DNA from: Xanthomonas codiaei
GTDB taxonomy: Bacteria > Pseudomonadota > Gammaproteobacteria > Xanthomonadales > Xanthomonadaceae
Length of the DNA: 64,000 bases
NCBI RefSeq assembly: GCF_002939785.1
Contig: NZ_MDEC01000002.1
Span: 62,001-126,000, forward strand
Direction of reading: 5' to 3'
Of this stretch, positions 4,826 through 24,903 are shown piece after piece (within the stretch, counting starts at the first letter, position 1; each line of letters opens with the position of its first letter). The translations under genes were made by a program, and so were the position numbers. The notes under the pieces were generated by a model. The model searched no databases. It saw only the letters and a program-made list of their open reading frames with translations, and had not been told where the DNA came from.

Positions 4826-7800
4826 TTACCAACCGAAGCCCGCACCCATGCCGATCGAACGGTCGTCGCCGCTGAGCGCACCGCCCACGGTCAAGGTGGC
4901 GCGCGGGCTGATCGCACGCTGGTAGCCCACCGACAACGCCGATTCGCCGTTCTGGAAACCGACACCGGCACCGATGCGATTGGGCGAGGCGATACCCGCC
5001 ACGCTGGCGGACATGTTCAACATCGCCGAGCTCATCGCACCCTGGCGGTCCAGGCGACGGTTCTGCCTGCGCAGACGGTCCTCGATATCGCCCTGGTAGC
5101 TTTCGAAGCTGTCGGCCATCGCGCTGTAGCGGCTGTCGGTGTAGCTGTTGGCCGCGGCAACCCCGCTGTCCAGCTGGCCCTTGTTGACCGCATCGGTGGC
5201 ACGCGTACCGGCGGCCACATTGGCCACCTGACGCTCGCCGCCCACGCTGCCCACCGACACCGTATTGGCGCGGTCAGCGACCGAGCCCTGGCCCAGCGCC
5301 ACGGCACCCTGCGCGGTGGCACGTGCACCCTGACCGATCGCAGTGCCGGACGCAGCGGTGACCTGCGCGCCTTCGCCCATGGCCACCGCATTGGTGGCCA
5401 CTGCCGCGATCTGCGTGTTGGCGCCCACCGCCGTGCTGCCATCGGCATTGACGCGTGCATTGCTGCCGATCGCGGTGTCGTTGGGGCCGTGCGCATAGGC
5501 GCTGCCGCCGATGGCCGTGCCGGTCACGTGGTTGGCCACCGCGGCGGTACCGACTGCCGTGGAGGTCGCCGCCGGGGTGATGGCGCCGACCACTGCGGCG
5601 GTCGGCGTGCCCTGCACGCCGGCGGTTGCGCCGCTCCCGTTGCCTGCAGCGGCACTGGCGGCCGGCGTTGGGACAGGCGCCGTCTCGCCGGCGACCGAAG
5701 TCGCCAACACCGCACCGGCATCATCGGCAGCGCTGCCAGCACCGGTGCTTCGTGCACCGCTCATCCGCGTTGCTGCAGTACGTAGTGCAGACACCCGCGA
5801 GGCGGTCGCCGTGCCTGCACGCGCATCCAGTTCGCTGACCTTGCTGTCCAGCGCGGTCAATGCAGCGCCCACGTTGTTGTAGCTGGCGCCCTGGATCACA
5901 TAGGTCGGCGCCACGAACAGGCCTTGTGCACCGATCGCCGCACCGCCGCCGAGGAAGCTGGCGGTATTGCTCAACGACTGGAACAGCTGGCCGCCGTTGA
6001 TCGCATCGGTACTGCTGCCTGCGAGCGCGCCGGCACCCACATTGACGATGCGCCGCGTGGCCGGGCCACCGCGGCCGTTGCCGTTGCCCACCGACACCAC
6101 ATTGGCGTCGTAGGTGCGCGATCCCGAGCCCAAGGCCACCGAATCGGCACCGCTGGCGCCGGCGTTGGCACCCAGCGCAAGCGCATTGCGCGCGCTCTCC
6201 CGGGTGAAGGCGCTGTAGCCCATCGCCAGACTGTTGTTGCCGAGCGCCCGCGCCTGCACGCCCAACGCCACCGCGGCACTGCCTACCTCGCCGACGAAGA
6301 CACCGACGCCGGCATCGCGTCCGATTGCGATCGCATCGGGCGCATCGGCCTTGGCATTGGTCCCCAAGGCGATGGTGTCGCCGTAGATGATCGAAGTATC
6401 GGCGCCACTGCCGATCGCGATGCTGCGGCTGGACGCAGCACGCGCGTCGTAACCGATGGCGATCGCCTCCGCCGCCTGCGCCGACGAAGCGGCACCCAGC
6501 GACACCGTGCGCGGCCCGAATGAGCCGGCGCTATGCCCGATGGCCACCGCGTCGACGTTGTTGTCGTTGCCGAACACATTGGCGTTGTAGCCCAGGGCGA
6601 TGGCGTAGTCGGCCTCGCTACGCGCGCCTGCACCGATCGCCACGCTGCCCAGACCCGAGCTCCCCGCACTGAACAGCGTGTTGCTGATCAGCGAGAACCC
6701 ACCGATGGTGACGCTGCGCTCCCCGAACGCCGCTGCACTGCTGCCCACCGCGACGCTGCTCTCGCCATTGCCAAGCGCAGCAAATCCCACGGCGGTGGCC
6801 AGCCTGCCGGTGGTCACCGCATTGAATCCCAATGCCGAAGACGCCGCGCCACGCGCCGCCGAGAAACTACCCAGCGCGGTATTGGTCTCTTCCAGCGCCT
6901 GCGCGGCGAAGCCCATCGCCGTGGACTGCGCGCCGCGTGCCGATGCACCGGTGCCCACCGCAGTGGCAAAGGTCTGCATAGCCTGCGCGCCACCGCCCAA
7001 TGCCACCGCGCCACGCCCCTGCGCAGTGGTCGCCTGTTCCTGTTCGCCGACGATGAAGCCGGTCGCATCGAACAATGGCACGTTGGCCACACCGCCCAGC
7101 GCCACCGCCGACGCATCCGAAGCGCTGGCGTTGCGCCCTACCGCCACGGTGTCGCGGCCGACTGCCGCGCTACCGGAACCCAGCGCATTGGCACCATCGC
7201 CCAATGCATTGCTGGCGCTGCCAAGGGCAATGGCATCACTGCCTTCGGCAAAGGCATCCGGCGCCTCGGTATCGGATTTGGCCAGCGCCAGATGACGGTC
7301 CAGACGCGAAGCGATGGCACCAACGCGATCGAGCTGCGCCAGGTTCACCGCATCGGTGGCCTCGGTACCGGCGGCAACGTTGGTGATCTGCCGAGTCAAG
7401 CCGGTCTGCGCGTTGCCCACCGACACCGTATTGCTGCGGTCGGCATACGAATACGCACCCAAGGCCACGGCGCTGGACGGGGAGCGGTTCCAGGCATCGT
7501 CGATCAGATCGCCCACCCGTGCGCCATACCCGATCGCCACCGCATCGACGCCGTTGGTTTGCACATCCGCACCGATGGCGGTGTTGTTGCCGTTGAACCA
7601 CGAGGTCGCAGCGCGCGCACCCACCGCGACGCTGTTCTCGGCGTAGGTGACGCTCTCCTGGCCGATCGACACGCTGCCATCGCCCATCGTCAATGCAGAG
7701 CCGCCCAGGGAAACGGTATGCGGCGCGAAGGTTCCGGCGGAATGACCGATCACAATCGCATCGGTATTGCCCGGCTGATTGGGGAAGACGTTGGAGTTGT

Positions 7801-8797
7801 AGCCGATCGCGATCGCGTAGTCGGACTGGCTCTGCGCGCCGGCACCCAGCGCGATGCCACCGAGCCCTGTCGCCGCACTGATCGACCCCTGGGTGCTTCT
7901 GCTGGCACCGCCGATGGCCACGCTATCGGCACCGCTGGCGAGCGAGCTGTCGCCCATCGCCACCGTGCCGGTGCCGGTGCCGCGTGCGCCGAAACCCACC
8001 GCCGTGGCGAAATCGCCGCTCGCATTGGCGCTGTAACCCAGCGCGGCACCGCCAAAACCCGACACCTGCGACAAACCACCCACCGCCGTGGCGGCATCCT
8101 GCACAGTGCGTGCGTGATACCCCAATGCCGTGCTCTGTATGCCGCCGGCAATGGTGCCGGTGCCCACCGCCGTGGCCAGCGGATCGACCGCCTTGGCACC
8201 GCCACCGATGGCGGTGGACGCAATGCCGGTGGCCTCGGTGGCTTGCTCGCTGCTGCTGATGATGAAGCCAAACGCATCGTACTCGTAGACCGTCGCCACC
8301 CCGCCGATGGCAACCGCAGACGTTCCGACGGCCACCGCATTGCGCCCCACCGCCGTCGTGTCGCGTTCCAGTGCCAGGCTGCCGGCTCCCAGCGCACTGG
8401 CGCCATCGGCCAACGCATTGCTCGCGGCCCCCAGCGCGATGGCATCGCGTCCGTCCACAAACGGAGGAACCTCGCCGTCCTCGTCCGCCGCTGTCGTCGC
8501 CCCCCCGCCGGTGGTCGGCACGGCTGCATCGGCGAGCGCATCGGCACCGGTCATGGCCGCTATTGAGGACGCAAGGCAGCTCTGCCGACCGTCGATGACG
8601 GCGCAGCGTTCGGTGGCAATGCGGGCCTGGGCCGCCGCAGTTGCCGGCATGCCCCCGCCGGCCAGCACGATGCAGACGGCAATCGCCAGCCCGCTGCGTG
8701 CCTGCGCTCCCACCCAGCCGTGGACAGTTGAGATAATCCGGTCACGCTTCGCCGTACCGGAGGGAGAATTCCCTTCGGCATGTCTGATATTTTTCAT
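4826..8797 (-). CDS. Trimeric autotransporter adhesin (YadA/XadA family), complete, 1323 aa
   Basis: Complete type Vc autotransporter. I prefer the ATG at 8797 (MKNIRHAEGN) to the one at 8815 because GGGGAG lies 10 nt before it; the longer form has no Shine-Dalgarno. The order is: extended signal region, then a head of YadA repeats in two successive copies, then a third head segment. Neck motifs include NTVSVGNAQTGLTRQITNV and VVSVGNGNGRGG. After these come a short coiled stretch (SKVSELDARA), an Ala/Thr/Pro-rich linker, a small extra head and neck, and a C-terminal YadA beta-barrel anchor ending IGMGAGFGW. The two large head copies (about residues 119-494 and 519-924) share an unusual aromatic insertion (YDAFGFII / FDATGFIV). 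The protease follows after 89 bp. The upstream region is AT-rich. Confidence 0.95.
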   Translation of the reverse strand: MKNIRHAEGNSPSGTAKRDRIISTVHGWVGAQARSGLAIAVCIVLAGGGMPATAAAQARIATERCAVIDGRQSCLASSIAAMTGADALADAAVPTTGGGATTAADEDGEVPPFVDGRDAIALGAASNALADGASALGAGSLALERDTTAVGRNAVAVGTSAVAIGGVATVYEYDAFGFIISSSEQATEATGIASTAIGGGAKAVDPLATAVGTGTIAGGIQSTALGYHARTVQDAATAVGGLSQVSGFGGAALGYSANASGDFATAVGFGARGTGTGTVAMGDSSLASGADSVAIGGASRSTQGSISAATGLGGIALGAGAQSQSDYAIAIGYNSNVFPNQPGNTDAIVIGHSAGTFAPHTVSLGGSALTMGDGSVSIGQESVTYAENSVAVGARAATSWFNGNNTAIGADVQTNGVDAVAIGYGARVGDLIDDAWNRSPSSAVALGAYSYADRSNTVSVGNAQTGLTRQITNVAAGTEATDAVNLAQLDRVGAIASRLDRHLALAKSDTEAPDAFAEGSDAIALGSASNALGDGANALGSGSAAVGRDTVAVGRNASASDASAVALGGVANVPLFDATGFIVGEQEQATTAQGRGAVALGGGAQAMQTFATAVGTGASARGAQSTAMGFAAQALEETNTALGSFSAARGAASSALGFNAVTTGRLATAVGFAALGNGESSVAVGSSAAAFGERSVTIGGFSLISNTLFSAGSSGLGSVAIGAGARSEADYAIALGYNANVFGNDNNVDAVAIGHSAGSFGPRTVSLGAASSAQAAEAIAIGYDARAASSRSIAIGSGADTSIIYGDTIALGTNAKADAPDAIAIGRDAGVGVFVGEVGSAAVALGVQARALGNNSLAMGYSAFTRESARNALALGANAGASGADSVALGSGSRTYDANVVSVGNGNGRGGPATRRIVNVGAGALAGSSTDAINGGQLFQSLSNTASFLGGGAAIGAQGLFVAPTYVIQGASYNNVGAALTALDSKVSELDARAGTATASRVSALRTAATRMSGARSTGAGSAADDAGAVLATSVAGETAPVPTPAASAAAGNGSGATAGVQGTPTAAVVGAITPAATSTAVGTAAVANHVTGTAIGGSAYAHGPNDTAIGSNARVNADGSTAVGANTQIAAVATNAVAMGEGAQVTAASGTAIGQGARATAQGAVALGQGSVADRANTVSVGSVGGERQVANVAAGTRATDAVNKGQLDSGVAAANSYTDSRYSAMADSFESYQGDIEDRLRRQNRRLDRQGAMSSAMLNMSASVAGIASPNRIGAGVGFQNGESALSVGYQRAISPRATLTVGGALSGDDRSIGMGAGFGW

Positions 8798-9188
8798 TAA
8801 CGACTTACTCCCCATTATGGTCAGGCGTATAAGAACCGACCACCGTGCGCCACTGTGGCGCAGGGTCCCCCTGAGGTTTTATCGAGCGCAGCAACTCCCG
8901 TTCGCCTTTATTTCCCGGCGAAAACAGCAATCGCGAGTGTCCAGCAGCAGTGCGAACTGTACGGATATGTAACGCATAAAGAATTTATTGAAAATCCGAA
9001 TGACTAAAAGCGAACCATGTCACGCGGATAAAAAAAAAGAACTCCGCACCGAATAACTATTATTTTTTATAGTTACCAGAAGTAAACCTTATGGTTGTTT
9101 CGGGACTTTGTGGCGACTGCGAGGCCGGGGCAGCCCGGGACTCGACAACGCAGCGGGCAGTCCGGGACTCAGCGCGACGAATAAACGT
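8798..9188. other. AT-rich leader upstream of the large adhesin
   Basis: No gene is supported here. About 8960-9085 is much richer in A+T than the rest of the window. It includes a run of nine A residues and an inverted repeat TAACTAT...ATAGTTA (9054-9075). This is the likely promoter region and long 5' leader of the adhesin. No convincing -35/-10 pair could be assigned. Confidence 0.4.
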
Positions 9189-9874: not shown

Positions 9875-12800
9875 TCAACCGCACCAGACGCGCGCGTTGC
9901 GGAACATCCGCAACCAGGGCGACTCCTCGCCCCAGTCCGCCGGATGCCAACTCAGGTTCACCGTGCGCGGGGTGCGCTCGGGATGCGGCATCAGGATGGT
10001 GGCGCGGCCATCGGCGCTGGTCAGGCCGGTGATGCCGTCCGGCGAGCCGTTCGGATTGAGCGGGTAGCGCGAGGCCGCCACGCCATCGCCATCGATGAAG
10101 CGCAGGGCCACCCGTGCGGCCGCCTGGTCCACGGCGGTATCGAATTCGGCGCGGCCTTCGCCGTGCGCCACCGCCACCGGGATCCGCGAACCGGCCATGC
10201 CGCGCAGGAAGATCGACGGCGACTCCACCACCTCCAGCAGCGCGGTGCGTGCCTCGAACTGCTCGCTGCGGTTGCGCAAAAAGCGCGGCCAATGCTCGGC
10301 ACCGGGAATGATGTCCTTGAGCTGGCTGAGCATCTGGCAGCCGTTGCACACGCCCAGCGCGAAGGTGTCGCTGCGCGCAAAGAATGCGGCAAAGGCATCG
10401 CGCAAGGCCGAGCGCTCCAGGATCGAGGTGGCCCAGCCGCGGCCGGCCCCCAGCACGTCGCCGTAGCTGAAACCGCCGCAGGCCGCGAAGCCGGCGAACT
10501 GCGCCAGATCCACGCGCCCGGCGATCAGGTCGCTCATATGCACGTCGAACGCGCGGAACCCGGCGCGCTCGAAGTTGTAGGCCATCTCGATCTGCCCGTT
10601 GACGCCCTGCTCGCGCAGGATCGCCACCTTGGGCCGCGCACCGGTGGCCACGAACGGCGCGGCCACGTCTTCGGACGGATCGAACGCCAGCTTCGGACGC
10701 AGACCGGGCGCCTGGAAATCCCGCGCCAGCGCGCGCTCTTCGTCGGCGCTGTCGGGGTTGTCGCGCAGCTTCTGCATGGCGTGGGTCACCGACCACCAGG
10801 CATCGAACAGCTCTTCCCACCGCCATTCGGCCAGCACCCGGCCCTGCCCGCTGACCCGCACGCGCGGCGTGCCGGTGGGGCGTGCGATGCGCTGCGCGCA
10901 TTCGGTCAGCGCATGCCGCTCGACCAGATCGGCGAACGCAGCGCGATCTTCGCTGGCGATCTGCACCACCGCGCCCAGTTCCTCGTTGAACAGGCTGCGG
11001 AACGCATCCTCGCCCCAGGCATCGAGGGTGATGTCCAGGCCCTGGCGCGAGGCGAACGCCATCTCGCACAGCGCCGCAAACGCGCCGCCATCGCTGCGGT
11101 CGTGATACGCCAGCAGCAGCCCGCTCTGGCGCGCATCGCGGATCAGCTCGAAGAAGCTGCGCAGCCGCTGCGCATCGTCCAGGTCCGGCACGTCACCGCC
11201 GAATGCCGGCAGCGCCGCAGCGTCGGCGTACACCTGCGCCAGCACCGACCCACCCAGACGCTGCTTGCCGCCGCCGAGCCCGATCAACCACAGCTCGCTT
11301 TGCTCATCGTTGCGCAGCAACGGCGTCAGCTGGCTGCGGACATCGCTCACCGGAGCGAACGCGCTGATGATGAGCGAGACTGGTGAAACGCTCTTGTGGG
11401 TGGTGGGATTGGGCATTGGGGATTGGGGATTGGCAAGAGCGGAGGGCTCCGGTGTTTCGCCAATCCCGAATGCCGAATCACCAATCCCGGCCTCAACCCA
11501 CTGCGCCTGCATCGACAGCGAATCCTTGCCCACCGGGATGCTCAGCTCCAGCGCCGGGCACAGTTCCATGCCGACCGCGCGCACCGCGTCGTACAGCAGC
11601 GCGTCCTCGCCGGGGTGACCGGCGGCGGCCATCCAGTTGGCCGACAGCTTGATGCTGTCCAGCGCCTGCACCGGTGCGGCGCACAGGTTGGTGATCGCCT
11701 CGCCGACCGCCATGCGCGCGGAGGCGGCGGCATTCAGCAGCGCCAGCGGGGCGCGCTCGCCGATCGACATCGCCTCGCCTTCGAAGGTCTCGAACCCGGC
11801 CAGGGTGATCGCGCAGTCGGCCAATGGCAGCTGCCACGGCCCGATCATCTGCTCGCGTGCAGTCAGCCCGCCCACGCTGCGGTCGCCGATGGTGACCAGA
11901 AAGCTCTTGGACGCCACGGTGGGATGCGCCAGCACGCGCAGGCCGGCCTGCTGCAGATCCAGCCCGGCGGTCTGCAGCGCCGGCCACTGCGGCGCGGCCG
12001 GATGCACCGCATCGCGATGCATCTTCGGTGCCTTGCCGAACAGGACGTCCATGGGCAGGTCGATCGGGAGCTGGGATTGGGGATTGGGGATTGGGGATTG
12101 GTTGGAAGCAGGAGCGACTCCAGCACCCGAGGAAGCGCCGTTGCGAATCCCGAATCCCGCATCTCCAATCCCGGAGTCGAAGACTCCATACCCCACCACC
12201 AGCCGCTCCTCGGCCGTGGCCACGCCGACGGCGGCGAACGGGCAGCGCTCGCGGGCGCAGATGGCGGCGAATTGCTCCAGGCGCGCCTGCGGTACGCCCA
12301 GCACGTAGCGTTCCTGCGATTCGTTGCACCACAGTTCCAGCGGCGACAGCGAGGGGTCGTCGCTGAGCACGCGGCCCAGGTCGATGATGCCGCCCACGCC
12401 CGAGTCGTGCAGCAGTTCGGGGATGGCGTTGGACAGGCCGCCCGCACCCACGTCGTGGAACCAGCGGATCGGGTTGTCGGTGCCCAGCGCCACGCAGCGG
12501 TCGATGACCTCCTGGCAGCGGCGCTCCATTTCCGGGTTTTCGCGCTGCACGCTGGCAAAATCCAGCGCCTCGGCGCTGTCGCCGGCAGCCACCGAACTGG
12601 CCGCGCCGCCGCCCAGGCCGATCAGCATCGCCGGCCCCCCCAGCACGATCACCGCATCGCCCGGCTGCAGGCGCAGCTTTTCCACCTGGTTGCGATCGAT
12701 CGCGCCCAGGCCGCCGGCCAGCATGATCGGCTTGTCGTAGGCGCGGGTCAGGCCCTGCCCCTCGGCAAGCTCGAAGCTGCGGAAATAGCCGAGCAGGTTC

Positions 12801-13927
12801 GGGCGGCCGAATTCGTTGTTGAACGCGGCACCGCCGAGCGGGCCGTCGAGCATGATGTCCAGCGCCGGCGCCATGCGCGGGTTCAGCGCGCGCGGCGCTT
12901 CCCACGGCTGTGGCAGGGTGGGGATGCGCAGGTGCGAGACCGAAAACCCGGTCAGGCCGGCCTTGGGCTTGCCGCCGCGGCCGGTGGCGCCCTCGTCGCG
13001 GATCTCCCCGCCCGCACCGGTGGCCGCGCCGGGGAACGGCGCGATCGCGGTCGGGTGGTTGTGCGTTTCCACCTTGATCGCAAATGCCGACGGCAACACC
13101 GCTTCGCTGCGGTACTCGCCGCTGGCCGGGTCCGGGCGGTAGCGCGCAGCCGGCACGCCTTCCACCACCGCCGCGTTGTCGCTGTAGGCCGACAAGGTGT
13201 GCTGCGGGGTCTGCTGGTGGGTGTGCTTGATCATCCGGAACAGCGAGCGTTCCTGCGGCTTGCCGTCGATGGTCCAGCTGGCATTGAAGATCTTGTGCCG
13301 GCAATGCTCGGAATTGGCCTGGGCAAACATCATCAGCTCGACATCGGCCGGATCGCGGCCCAGGGCGGCGAAGCGTTCGCGCAGGTAGTCGATCTCGTCC
13401 TGCGCCAGCGCCAGGCCCAGCTCGCGGTTGGCCTGCTCCAGCCCGTCCAGCGGCACGCGCTGCAGCTGGCCCGGGTCGGGCACGTTGAACAGCGCCTCGG
13501 CCGCGGCGGCCGAGCCCAGCAGCGACTGCGTCATCGGGTCGTGCAGCAGCCTGGCCACCGCGGCCTGCGCGGCGGCATCGGCCGGCCAGCCGACCAGATC
13601 GATACGGGTGCCCCGCTCCACGCGCTGGATCGGCTGCCCGGCCCCACGCACCAGCTCGGTGGCCTTGCTCGACCACGGCGACAGCGTGCCCAGGCGCGGC
13701 ACCACATAGCGCGAAGAGGCGTCCTGGTCGCGCGGCGCCGGCTCTGCGCCGGCCTGCAGGATCCGCTGCAAGGTCACCTGATCGGGCGCTTGCCCGGCCT
13801 CGGCGCGGACGAAGTAGACGTGCCAGGCGCCGGTGATGCGCAGCGCGGGAACGAGGGTTTGCAGGCGGGTTTCGAGCCGAGCGCGGCGGAACGGCGAAAG
13901 GGCGGAAGCGCCCTCGAGGACCATCAT
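9875..13927 (-). CDS. purL: Phosphoribosylformylglycinamidine synthase (single-chain PurL)
   Basis: ATP- and glutamine-dependent conversion of FGAR to FGAM in purine synthesis, in the cytosol. At 1350 residues it is the large proteobacterial form. An N-terminal PurS-like region comes first, then two AIRS-type halves (e.g. [30 protein letters not shown]), then a C-terminal class I glutamine amidotransferase with its nucleophile at Cys1194 ([10 protein letters not shown]). The reading frame carries two in-frame insertions of about 30-36 residues (near 584-620 and 812-842), rich in N-P-Q-S-I-G, encoded by repeats otherwise found between genes. Without them the length falls near that of the E. 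coli enzyme (about 1295). Two consecutive ATGs open the frame; the longer is given. It appears monocistronic. Confidence 0.97.
11401..11494. repeat. GGGATT-type hairpin repeat inside purL (copy A)
   Basis: The left arm has GGGCATT-GGGGATT-GGGGATT units. The right arm has CCAATCCCGAATGCCG and CCAATCCCGG. The two arms are complementary, so the element can fold into a hairpin. It is read through in frame as part of purL. The same units occur in the pepA-holC and holC-valS spacers. Confidence 0.8.
12068..12177. repeat. GGGATT-type hairpin repeat inside purL (copy B) with four tandem heptamers
   Basis: Four perfect tandem copies of GGGATTG occupy 12073-12100. An opposing arm, CGAATCCCGAATCCCGCA...CCAATCCCGG, lies at about 12142-12176. 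In the purL frame the left arm encodes [10 protein letters not shown]. The heptamer period is not a multiple of three, so slippage by one unit would frameshift purL. Confidence 0.82.
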
Positions 13928-19797: not shown

Positions 19798-21282
19798 ATG
19801 GCCCTGCAATTCACCCTGAACCAAGACGCGCCGGCAAGCGCCGCGGTCGACTGCATCGTGGTTGGCGTGTTCGCCGACAAGACCCTCTCGCCCGCCGCCC
19901 AGGCCCTGGACAGCGCCAGCCAGGGCCGCCTGACGGCCCTGGTGGCACGCGGCGACGTGGTGGCCAAGACCGGCAGCACCACCCTGCTGCACGACCTGCC
20001 CGGGGTCACCGCCCCGCGCGTGCTGGTGGTGGGGCTGGGCGATGCCGGCAAGTTCGGCGTGGCGCCCTACCTCAAGGCGGTGGGCGATGCGACCCGCGCG
20101 CTCAAGACCGGCGCGGTGGGCACTGCCCTGCTGACCTTGACCGAGCTTTCCATCAAGGCCCGCGACGCCGCCTGGAACATCCGCCAGGCCGTGGTGGTCA
20201 GCGACCATGCCGCCTACCGCTACACCGCCACGCTGGCCAAGAAGAAGGTGGACGAGACCGGCCTGACCACCCTGGCCATCGCCGGCGACGACGCCCGTGC
20301 GCTGGCAGTGGGCATCGCCACCGCCGAAGGTGTGGAGTTCGCCCGCGAGCTGGGCAACCTGCCGCCGAACTACTGCACCCCGGCGTATCTGGCCGACACC
20401 GCTGCGGCCTTCGCCGGCAAGTTCCCGGGCGCCGAGGCCGAGATCCTGGACGAGGCGCAGATGGAGTCGCTGGGCATGGGCTCGCTGCTGTCGGTCGCGC
20501 GCGGTTCGGCCAACCGCCCGCGCCTGATCGTGCTGAAGTGGAACGGCGGCGGCGACGCGCGCCCGTACGTGCTGGTCGGCAAGGGCATCACCTTCGACAC
20601 CGGCGGCGTCAACCTCAAGACGCAGGGCGGCATCGAGGAAATGAAGTACGACATGTGCGGTGGCGCCAACGTCATCGGCACCTTCGTGGCCACGGTCAAG
20701 GCCGAGCTGCCGATCAACCTGGTGGTGGTGGTGCCGGCGGTGGAGAACGCCATCGACGGCAATGCCTATCGCCCCTCTGACGTGATCACCAGCATGTCCG
20801 GCAAGACCATCGAGGTCGGCAATACCGATGCCGAAGGCCGCCTGATCCTGTGCGATGCGCTGACCTACGCCGAGCGCTTCAACCCCGAAGCGCTGGTGGA
20901 CGTGGCTACGCTGACCGGCGCCTGCATGGTGGCGCTGGGCCACCAGACCGCCGGCCTGATGAGCAAGCACGACGACCTGGCCAACGAGCTGCTGGCCGCT
21001 GGCGAGCACGTGTTCGACCGCGCCTGGCGCCTGCCGCTGTGGGACGAATACCAGGGCCTGCTGGATTCCACCTTCGCCGACGTCTACAACATCGGCGGCC
21101 GCTGGGGCGGCGCGATCACCGCCGGCTGCTTCCTGTCGCGCTTCACCGAAAACCAGCGCTGGGCGCACCTGGACATCGCCGGCGTGGCCAGCGATGAAGG
21201 CAAGCGCGGCATGGCCACCGGCCGTCCGGTCGGCCTGCTGACCCAGTGGTTGCTGGACCGCGCCGCAAGCGGCGCGGCGTGA
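19798..21282 (+). CDS. pepA: Cytosol (leucyl) aminopeptidase PepA
   Basis: M17 leucine aminopeptidase of 494 residues, normally a hexamer with two metal ions. Metal and catalytic residues are visible in KGITFDTGG (Lys262, Asp267) and NTDAEGRL (starting Asn342, containing the catalytic Arg). In enterobacteria PepA also serves as an accessory protein in Xer recombination at plasmid sites and as a transcription regulator; whether this one does is unknown. It begins a pepA-holC-valS cluster. The stop codon abuts a GGGATT-type repeat. Confidence 0.96.
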
Positions 21283-21397
21283 TTGGGGAGTGGAGATTCG
21301 GGATTCGTGCCGCCGCACGCATCCCGCCGTCCTTAGCAACTTGCAGGCAGACAGTGACCGGCTGTCGCCAATCCCGAATCCCCCTCAACGAATCCCT
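21281..21397. repeat. GGGATT-type hairpin repeat between pepA and holC (copy C)
   Basis: Left arm GATTGGGGAGTGGAGATTCGGGATTCG begins inside the pepA stop codon. The right arm, CCAATCCCGAATCCCCC followed by CGAATCCC, ends a few bases before the holC ATG. The repeat therefore forms essentially the whole intergenic region. Confidence 0.75.
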
Positions 21398-21403
21398 GCC
21401 CTG

Positions 21404-21829
21404 ATGCCCCGTGCCGACTTCTACCTGATCGCCAAGCCGCGCTTCCTCAACGAACCGCTGCGGCTGGTCTGCGAGCTGGCGCGCAAGGCCAACGACGCCA
21501 ACCTGTCCACGCTGATCCTGGCGCGCGATGCGCAACAGGCCGAAGCGCTGGACGACCTGCTGTGGGCGTTCGACGACGAGGCCTATGTACCGCACCAGAT
21601 CGCCGGCACCGACGACGAAGACGAACTGGCGCCGGTGCTGATCGCCGCCCCGGAGTTCGCCGCGCCGTCGCGCCCGCTGGTGATCAACCTGCGCGACGAC
21701 CCCTACCTGGGCGCCTGCGACCGTGTCCTGGAAGTGGTGCCGGCCGACCCCGCCGCCCGCGAACCGCTGCGCGAACGCTGGAAACAGTACAAGGCCCTGG
21801 GCCTGGAACTCACCAAGTACGACATGTGA
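21404..21829 (+). CDS. holC: DNA polymerase III subunit chi
   Basis: Chi subunit of the clamp-loader complex, which links it to single-stranded DNA-binding protein. 141 residues, starting MPRADFYLIAKPRF and ending KYDM. The family-typical DFYLI opening, the LSTLILARDAQQAEALDDLLW segment and the FVPH-like YVPHQIAG are visible. It sits between pepA and valS as in many gammaproteobacteria. The frame extends upstream, but that part is translated repeat sequence, so I placed the start at 21404. Confidence 0.92.
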   Translation: MPRADFYLIAKPRFLNEPLRLVCELARKANDANLSTLILARDAQQAEALDDLLWAFDDEAYVPHQIAGTDDEDELAPVLIAAPEFAAPSRPLVINLRDDPYLGACDRVLEVVPADPAAREPLRERWKQYKALGLELTKYDM

Positions 21830-21835
21830 GGGCGG

Positions 21836-22048
21836 CGGGGATTGGGGAGACGGGATTGGGGATTCGTAACAGCAGATGTTTGCGTCTCCCTGGGCTGCAT
21901 CCAACGACCAACCCAATCCAGCCGATCTTCGTTCCGCAGCACCAACACCGACATTGATGAGTGGATTGCCAGTGATTCTCGCCGGCCCCATGACGCAACA
22001 AATCCCGAATCCCGAATCCCGAATCCCGAATAACGAATCCCAGCCCTT
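21836..22048. repeat. GGGATT-type repeat between holC and valS (copy D)
   Basis: Left arm GGGGATTGGGGAGACGGGATTGGGGATTCG is at about 21836-21869. The right arm is four tandem AATCCCG heptamers followed by AATAACGAATCCC at about 22010-22048. The intervening 140 bp has no gene. The right arm ends just before the valS start, so it also contributes the valS leader. Confidence 0.78.
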
Positions 22049-22050
22049 CT

Positions 22051-24903
<2,853 letters not shown>

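Follow-up and report, generated by a model that had tools for sequence, protein, structure and literature searches.

The purL gene of Xanthomonas codiaei, in the 64,000-nucleotide stretch of DNA analysed here (the window), is interrupted by two palindromic repeats that are read through in frame, and this raises the question of how such elements entered an essential enzyme, and what keeps them there. With a probability of roughly three in four, we consider the inserts to be tolerated cargo of a mobile repeat, which resides in two permissive loops of PurL and is overwritten by short-tract exchange.

Two inserts in the PurL protein of the window

The gene and its inserts were located as follows:

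9875-13927, minus strand: purL, single-chain phosphoribosylformylglycinamidine synthase (1350 amino acids), with a frame open through both inserts
12074-12175, minus strand: site 1 insert (residues 585-618), directly C-terminal of the AIRS_C domain (421-579); net +29 codons relative to Stenotrophomonas
12143-12172, minus strand: site 1 sense 5' arm, G-rich, GGGATT-type units
12073-12101, minus strand: site 1 sense 3' arm, C-rich, four CAATCCC units (read from the sequence)
11393-11488, minus strand: site 2 insert (residues 814-845), towards the C-terminal end of the PurM_N-like domain; net +27 codons
11459-11488, minus strand: site 2 sense 5' arm, G-rich
11405-11434, minus strand: site 2 sense 3' arm, C-rich

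Two in-frame GGGATT/AATCCC blocks within purL had been described in a first-pass annotation, and both were present where it placed them; the frame was open across each, in agreement with its claim that they are read through without a stop. All domains of the single-chain enzyme (FGAR-AT_N, linker, PurM_N-like, AIRS_C, and GATase_5) were matched in the window protein, the PurM_N-like match covering residues 673-814 (profile positions 1-142 of 160). Alignment to Salmonella PurL (1t3t and 6jt9), which had been proposed as a check, gave three stretches, between which residues 585-618 and 814-845 matched nothing in the Salmonella chain; the ends of these stretches on chain 6jt9 abutted or nearly so (604/605 and 798/804). 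The annotation had also held that the same residues in orthologues from repeat-free genera would speak against insertion, and the repeat-free PurL of Stenotrophomonas, Pseudomonas, and Rhodanobacter had none. The loops contained 11 and 7 codons without, and 40 and 34 codons with, the insert, and subtraction of the 56 net insert residues from 1350 left 1294 amino acids, the length of the insert-free Stenotrophomonas protein (L035); the expectation of a usual PurL length after subtraction was thus confirmed. The site 2 arms (30 nt) were 83% complementary, and both inserts folded as RNA better than shuffled sequences (z values of -2.95 and -4.88, with 2 and 0 of 200 shuffles, respectively, folding as well).

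Site 1 was placed five to six positions N-terminal of Leu600 in Salmonella PurL, using a numbering offset deduced from the match of Leu600, Val604, and Leu605. In the available part of PMC3815217, this region is described as a thirty-residue linker between the duplicated halves, with a loop close to the surface and a pocket at the linker-domain interface that adjoins the site 1 loop. The earlier suggestion of permissive surface loops therefore held for site 1, from the preserved frame and this published loop, and was less firmly based for site 2, where it relied on variable loop length and low model confidence. In an AlphaFold2 model of residues 205-1085 (43 sequences; mean pLDDT of 70.1), both inserts were coil with pLDDT under 50 over model positions 381-407 and 611-632; since seven other stretches of the model were also below 50, this is weak evidence for disorder.

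A mechanism consistent with these features may be proposed. The linker after the AIRS_C domain and a loop towards the C-terminal end of the PurM_N-like domain would both tolerate added residues. Short, mostly intergenic palindromes (four heptamer units and their four complements, separated by a spacer) have entered them in frame, as the open frame, the alignment, and their position show. The inserts would then be translated as a disordered loop. Resident inserts would be overwritten as cassettes of approximately 100 bp through short-tract recombination with alleles of other species, and single arms may sometimes be overwritten by other genomic copies.

The heptamer elements in this genome and known repeat systems

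The same repeat type had been noted in the spacers that the annotation named pepA-holC and holC-valS, and it was present in the region after the aminopeptidase gene:

19798-21282: aminopeptidase gene (Peptidase_M17 match; next large frame 22051-24903)
21300-21396, no strand assigned: GGGATT-type copy directly after the aminopeptidase gene, overlapping the longest reading of frame 21290-21829
21838-22041, no strand assigned: GGGATT-type array pair between frames 21290-21829 and 22051-24903

Because of its overlap with frame 21290-21829, the first copy is intergenic only if the start of that gene is further down. The exact 15-mer GGGATTGGGGATTGG had 90 matches in the 5.04 Mb genome (each overlap within tandem arrays being counted), and its reversed control had none. 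A survey of 55 stretches around exact GGGATT-type and GGGACC-type matches (GGGAAT-type matches were not among the seeds), together with the window, yielded 91 unit clusters, or 80 when neighbours were merged, and the typical element had a spacer flanked by two mutually complementary arms of four heptamers each. An ORF and codon-usage rule placed three of the 91 clusters inside a coding frame, two of them in purL and the third in a methionine-synthase-type frame; a looser cut added four clusters with a spanning open frame (L141, L143, L162, and L189). Methionine synthase itself appeared to be split in this genome (L154; C9:95300-104000, near position 2550): the second frame contained B12 and pterin domains (Pfam) and one GGGATT-type element in frame, the preceding frame resembled the homocysteine half by eye, and a SPSPACGRRWRAAPDEG-type repeat separated the two.

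Arrays of GGGATTG, GGGAATC, GGGACCC, and GGGACTC had no stop in any of the six frames, and are therefore suited to in-frame residence; GTGATTC arrays were free of stops in three frames. In 25 paired elements outside purL, a mean of 4.28 of the six frames was open, versus 2.26 in shuffles.

Like MITEs, the purL-type elements had terminal inverted repeats and many copies; the loop flanks were too diverged from insert-free genera for a target-site duplication to be read by eye. They carried no GTAG-type head beside the palindrome as REPs of the RAYT system do, the arms being heptamer arrays, and no cognate tyrosine transposase flanked by the repeat was found in this genome. The single Y1_Tnp match had two internal stops, and the stretch around it contained four scattered single units and no array; a RAYT as the mover of these repeats was therefore unsupported. 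According to the available part of Nunvar 2010 (PMC2817692), Xanthomonas REPs of the RAYT type begin with GTAGGAGCGC.

The closest known repeats are the G-quadruplex heptamers (GGGNATC) of Xanthomonas, for which the accessible sections of Rehm et al. 2015 (PMC4692102) report that four units are preferred, that inverted pairs are frequent (70 and 75 cases), that GGGAATC repeats are mostly intergenic (11% and 7% at least partly overlap genes), and that 56% and 42% of repeats have four intact quadruplex-capable G-tracts. The purL inserts were of the same unit type, with at least two tandem GGGANTN heptamers, and differed in that the arm pair and spacer form one in-frame cassette. The GGGATT-type inserts of the window contained no exact GGGAATC unit and are, by that strict criterion, a sister type, while class B purL alleles of other species (see below) did contain it. 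Neither sense arm of the window had four intact G-tracts (GGG,GAG,GGG,GGG and GGG,GTG,GGC,GGG). The main text of Rehm et al. does not mention purL.

In their behaviour, the inserts resembled the Rickettsia palindromic elements, which, according to a review (PMC2229807) of Ogata et al. 2000, are of approximately 105-146 bp and translated in frame inside conserved enzymes, including a Gmk that is translated and active. The purL case differs in its lineage, in the presence of several families at the same two loops, and in turnover between close species. GTAG/CGTC REPs were also described inside genes by the Di Nocera group (2013; PMC3733652, in part), in frame in many species, as inserts of 20-30 amino acids, with double insertions within one gene and, in recB, different REPs at approximately the same site in X. 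campestris and X. oryzae; the purL elements lack the GTAG/CGTC head, and section 15 of that paper neither names purL nor reports cassette exchange. Nematomorpha mitochondrial protein genes embed long inverted repeats as coding palindromes (PMC6649704, in part), in different organisms and with no dispersed repeat family described in the portion available, and, in X. citri, 7-nt repeats are used as typing markers (PMC6482255, in part). Thus, in-frame palindromic elements (Rickettsia and REP-rich genomes) and the heptamer repeats of Xanthomonas were already known. On the other hand, no prior report of the purL case was recognised in the titles and abstract openings of the open-licence PMC literature (supplements aside), and no case of several families settling repeatedly in the same two loops of a single enzyme, together with cassette turnover, was found in the literature searched.

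Distribution and turnover of the inserts

Arm types were classified as A (GGGATT), B (GGGAAT), or C (GGGACC), written as left/right arm. purL was present in all 35 Xanthomonas genomes, in 34 of them as a single match that spanned the entire query without a break, and these 34 had an unbroken frame with inserted sequence, in some cases shortened, at both loops. Site 1 was A/A in 14 genomes, B/B in 12, C/C in 5, B/A in 2, and -/A in 1; the corresponding figures at site 2 were 14 A/A, 14 B/B, 4 C/C, 1 B/-, and 1 AC/-. The sites varied independently (sites 1 and 2 were A and B in L010, B and C in L024, and C and A in L015), and mixed arms were found in L005, L026, L126, L128, and L133. At site 1 of L030, a shortened insert (63 nt loop) was still a near-perfect palindrome by eye, unlike a simple deletion, and L111 had lost the right arm of site 2 in frame. 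In the remaining genome (G027; L115), the match was in three pieces with the frame broken inside both inserts. This assembly had a completeness of 90% and a contamination of 4%, and by eye its inserts departed in single bases rather than in whole heptamers; the breaks are probably sequencing errors at the repeats. Phase variation by slippage was considered for this genome and set aside, the single-base differences and the state of the assembly giving proof neither way. A strain named Xanthomonas sp. GPE 39 (L042) had short non-repeat loops only.

Some form of insert in all 35 sampled Xanthomonas genomes suggests an old entry; in the presence/absence comparison proposed earlier, the blocks were thus no oddity of one strain, and it was their content that turned over fast. 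The single repeat family assumed at the outset held within the window and did not extend across species and genera, where several families occupied the same loops. Other Lysobacteraceae, including the neighbouring genus (code g7), carried there GTGATT (L045 and L196), GGGACT (L191 and L198), type A (L199), or type B (L048, L205, and L206), and a SLLPPGEGARRADEG-like family was found in L061, L196, L204, L210, L215, and others. The genome of L045 contained 27 GTGATT and no GGGAAT matches; that of L048, with GGGAAT at site 2, contained 109 GGGAAT and 64 GTGATT matches; and G054 contained neither, with 13 SLLPPGEG-type matches including that of purL itself. In the GTGATT-type site 2 inserts of L045 and L196, GAA stood where the array consensus gives TGA in frame. 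By our own reading, this substitution, like the frame kept in 34 of the 35 Xanthomonas genomes, would be needless if the blocks were absent from the mature product owing to RNA removal or ribosome skipping, a proposal that nothing in this analysis favoured and that we regard as scarcely credible.

Among the matches listed, the site 1 loop was at least 20 residues longer than that of Stenotrophomonas in 26 of 69 genomes and 14 of 23 genera, by a length criterion that does not imply repeat identity (the 69 lie outside g1 and g7 and have one match spanning site 1, other match shapes being excluded). The 40 relatives that were fetched had been chosen partly by length, and hence yield no rate. Of the complete PurLs from ten other families of the order (partial matches excluded), 2 of 88 exceeded the query by at least 15 residues; when both were aligned, G376 had a longer loop at site 2, and the excess in G384 was spread over several places. 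A GPAQRAGRSDEPRG block at site 1 in several genera was not counted as a proven repeat family, since the 40 of 118 candidates that were scored yielded just 2 genomic matches at E<=0.001, purL itself included.

The two loops of this essential enzyme may act as family-wide landing pads, which unrelated Lysobacteraceae palindrome families enter time and again. A resident palindrome would itself focus exchange there, e.g., when a hairpin breaks and is mended by short-tract repair, and species would thereby swap in-frame cassettes of approximately 100 bp. We advance this extension tentatively, as somewhat short of an even chance; if true, purL would record the repeat family that is currently spreading.

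Inserts differed between close species, with little change in the rest of the gene. In 50 pairs with flank identity of at least 95.5%, 68 of 100 site comparisons differed in arm type or by more than 12 nt (the pairs are not independent), and part of the 68 reflected decay or deletion with no swap (e.g., L030/L112 and L022/L111). L004 and L010 were identical over 75 bp on either side of site 2, yet had an A and a B insert, and L133, L128, L062, and L125 shared 75 identical bases upstream of site 2 with types C, B, A, and A, respectively. On an insert-free purL tree (57 rows), arm type had to change 28 times at site 1 and 25 times at site 2, equal to the minima of 100 shuffles (means of 32.1 and 29.4), and therefore carried little phylogenetic signal. 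Near-identical alleles occurred in species whose flanks were 6 to 8% apart; insert and flank identities were 0.98 and 0.924 in L010/L017, and 1.00 and 0.935 in L017/L027. Insert identity exceeded flank identity in 22 of 124 (site 1) and 21 of 177 (site 2) pairs of the same type and length; since the insert was the more diverged part in most same-type pairs, most insert differences look like ordinary divergence.

Types might instead switch solely by re-insertion or conversion from copies in the same genome, with no exchange between species, which we find doubtful but worth weighing. The purL arm type followed the A/B balance of its own genome (Mann-Whitney p values of 0.0013 to 0.0022 in four tests) and type C followed the C count (p = 0.00045), all without control for descent; when descent was controlled, a mean of 1.2 pairs was for, 0.2 against, and 5.6 uninformative at site 1, and 2.9, 0.1, and 4.0, respectively, at site 2, too few being informative at either site. 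The mixed arms noted above also fit same-genome conversion, as do the A and B alleles at site 2 that have a spacer in common but different arms, a pattern that points to arms having been replaced at some stage. However, a fresh insertion would carry its own spacer, near-identical alleles recur in distant species, and a mutated unit, GGCATTC, was common to 10 of 13 class A site 2 alleles (an eleventh having one further change), which argues for one old allele that moved. From the identical flanks, the near-identical inserts in distant species, the shared spacers, and the mixed arms, we infer short-tract exchange between species together with some ectopic conversion.

Constraint on the inserts and other repeat-bearing proteins

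Changes were counted by codon position in 43 same-class pair-by-site comparisons (flank difference of at most 6%; inserts more than 25% different dropped). They numbered 126/118/172 in the inserts (8.9% overall) and 840/535/5386 in the flanks (4.1% overall; approximately 9.8%, as derived, at third positions). The inserts evolve at about the silent rate, and the near-even spread over codon positions makes their peptides look unconstrained. The location of the site 1 loop beside the linker-domain pocket of Salmonella PurL (PMC3815217, available part) would suit a function of the insert peptides themselves, e.g., in regulation or partner binding; given these rates, and the little sequence that peptides of different families have in common, we judge such a function very unlikely.

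Retention for RNA hairpins, which might slow ribosomes at domain boundaries as a long protein folds, is somewhat easier to entertain but still unlikely. Both sites are at or near such boundaries, both inserts fold strongly as RNA, and some insert form was present in every sampled genome of the genus. Against this, no compensatory stem changes were found at site 2 in 29 pairs of 12 class B sequences or in 29 pairs of 13 class A sequences, and class A pairing had decayed to 80.4% of cells; stem conservation was rejected on the lack of covariation in either class. Moreover, L111 lost the site 2 right arm in frame, and L042 and the insert-free genera manage without inserts.

Avoidance of G-quadruplexes on the sense arms was also considered. 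Class means of intact G-tracts per arm ranged from 2.4 to 3.8 of 4. For the sense versus the C-rich arm, they were 2.88 versus 3.71 (site 1) and 2.40 versus 2.70 (site 2) in class A, 3.71 versus 3.59 and 3.76 versus 3.29 in class B, and 3.29 versus 3.57 and 3.71 versus 3.71 in class C; class A fits avoidance, but class B does not follow, and this candidate was rejected.

These results are consistent with tolerated cargo that confers no shown benefit. Pure neutrality does not explain why both inserts persist, at least as remnants, in every sampled genome of the genus; their precise loss may be rare. The inserts provide a natural series of many variants of an essential enzyme, where dispersed palindromes arrive, decay, and give way to others at fixed positions with the frame kept. 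How bacterial palindromic repeats spread, are tolerated, and are exchanged is a long-standing question, which can here be approached by counting at a single conserved locus. The two loops are naturally tested sites for extra peptide. In practice, purL serves poorly as a marker across these loops, and its repeat-encoded residues should not be taken for enzyme sequence.

In-frame repeats were also found in proteins other than PurL. A search with an SLLPPGEG insert among proteins of approximately 770 to 2440 residues gave 13 matches at E<=10: seven PurL, four proteins with valyl-tRNA synthetase domains, one MmeI-type methylase, and one Lhr-like helicase, as identified by Pfam domains or source names. 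In the four synthetase-type proteins (P0007, P0008, P0009, and P0015), the reading frame ran through an SLLPPGEG-type repeat; that of P0009 separated the catalytic domain, which extends to 608, from the anticodon domain, which starts at 680. With a GGGACC insert and the same size limit, the best seven of nine matches were all PurL, in a search that favours PurL because the query region included nine of its conserved residues. In the window, positions 4826-8815 (minus strand) encoded a 1329-amino-acid trimeric autotransporter adhesin with YadA head, stalk, and anchor domains.
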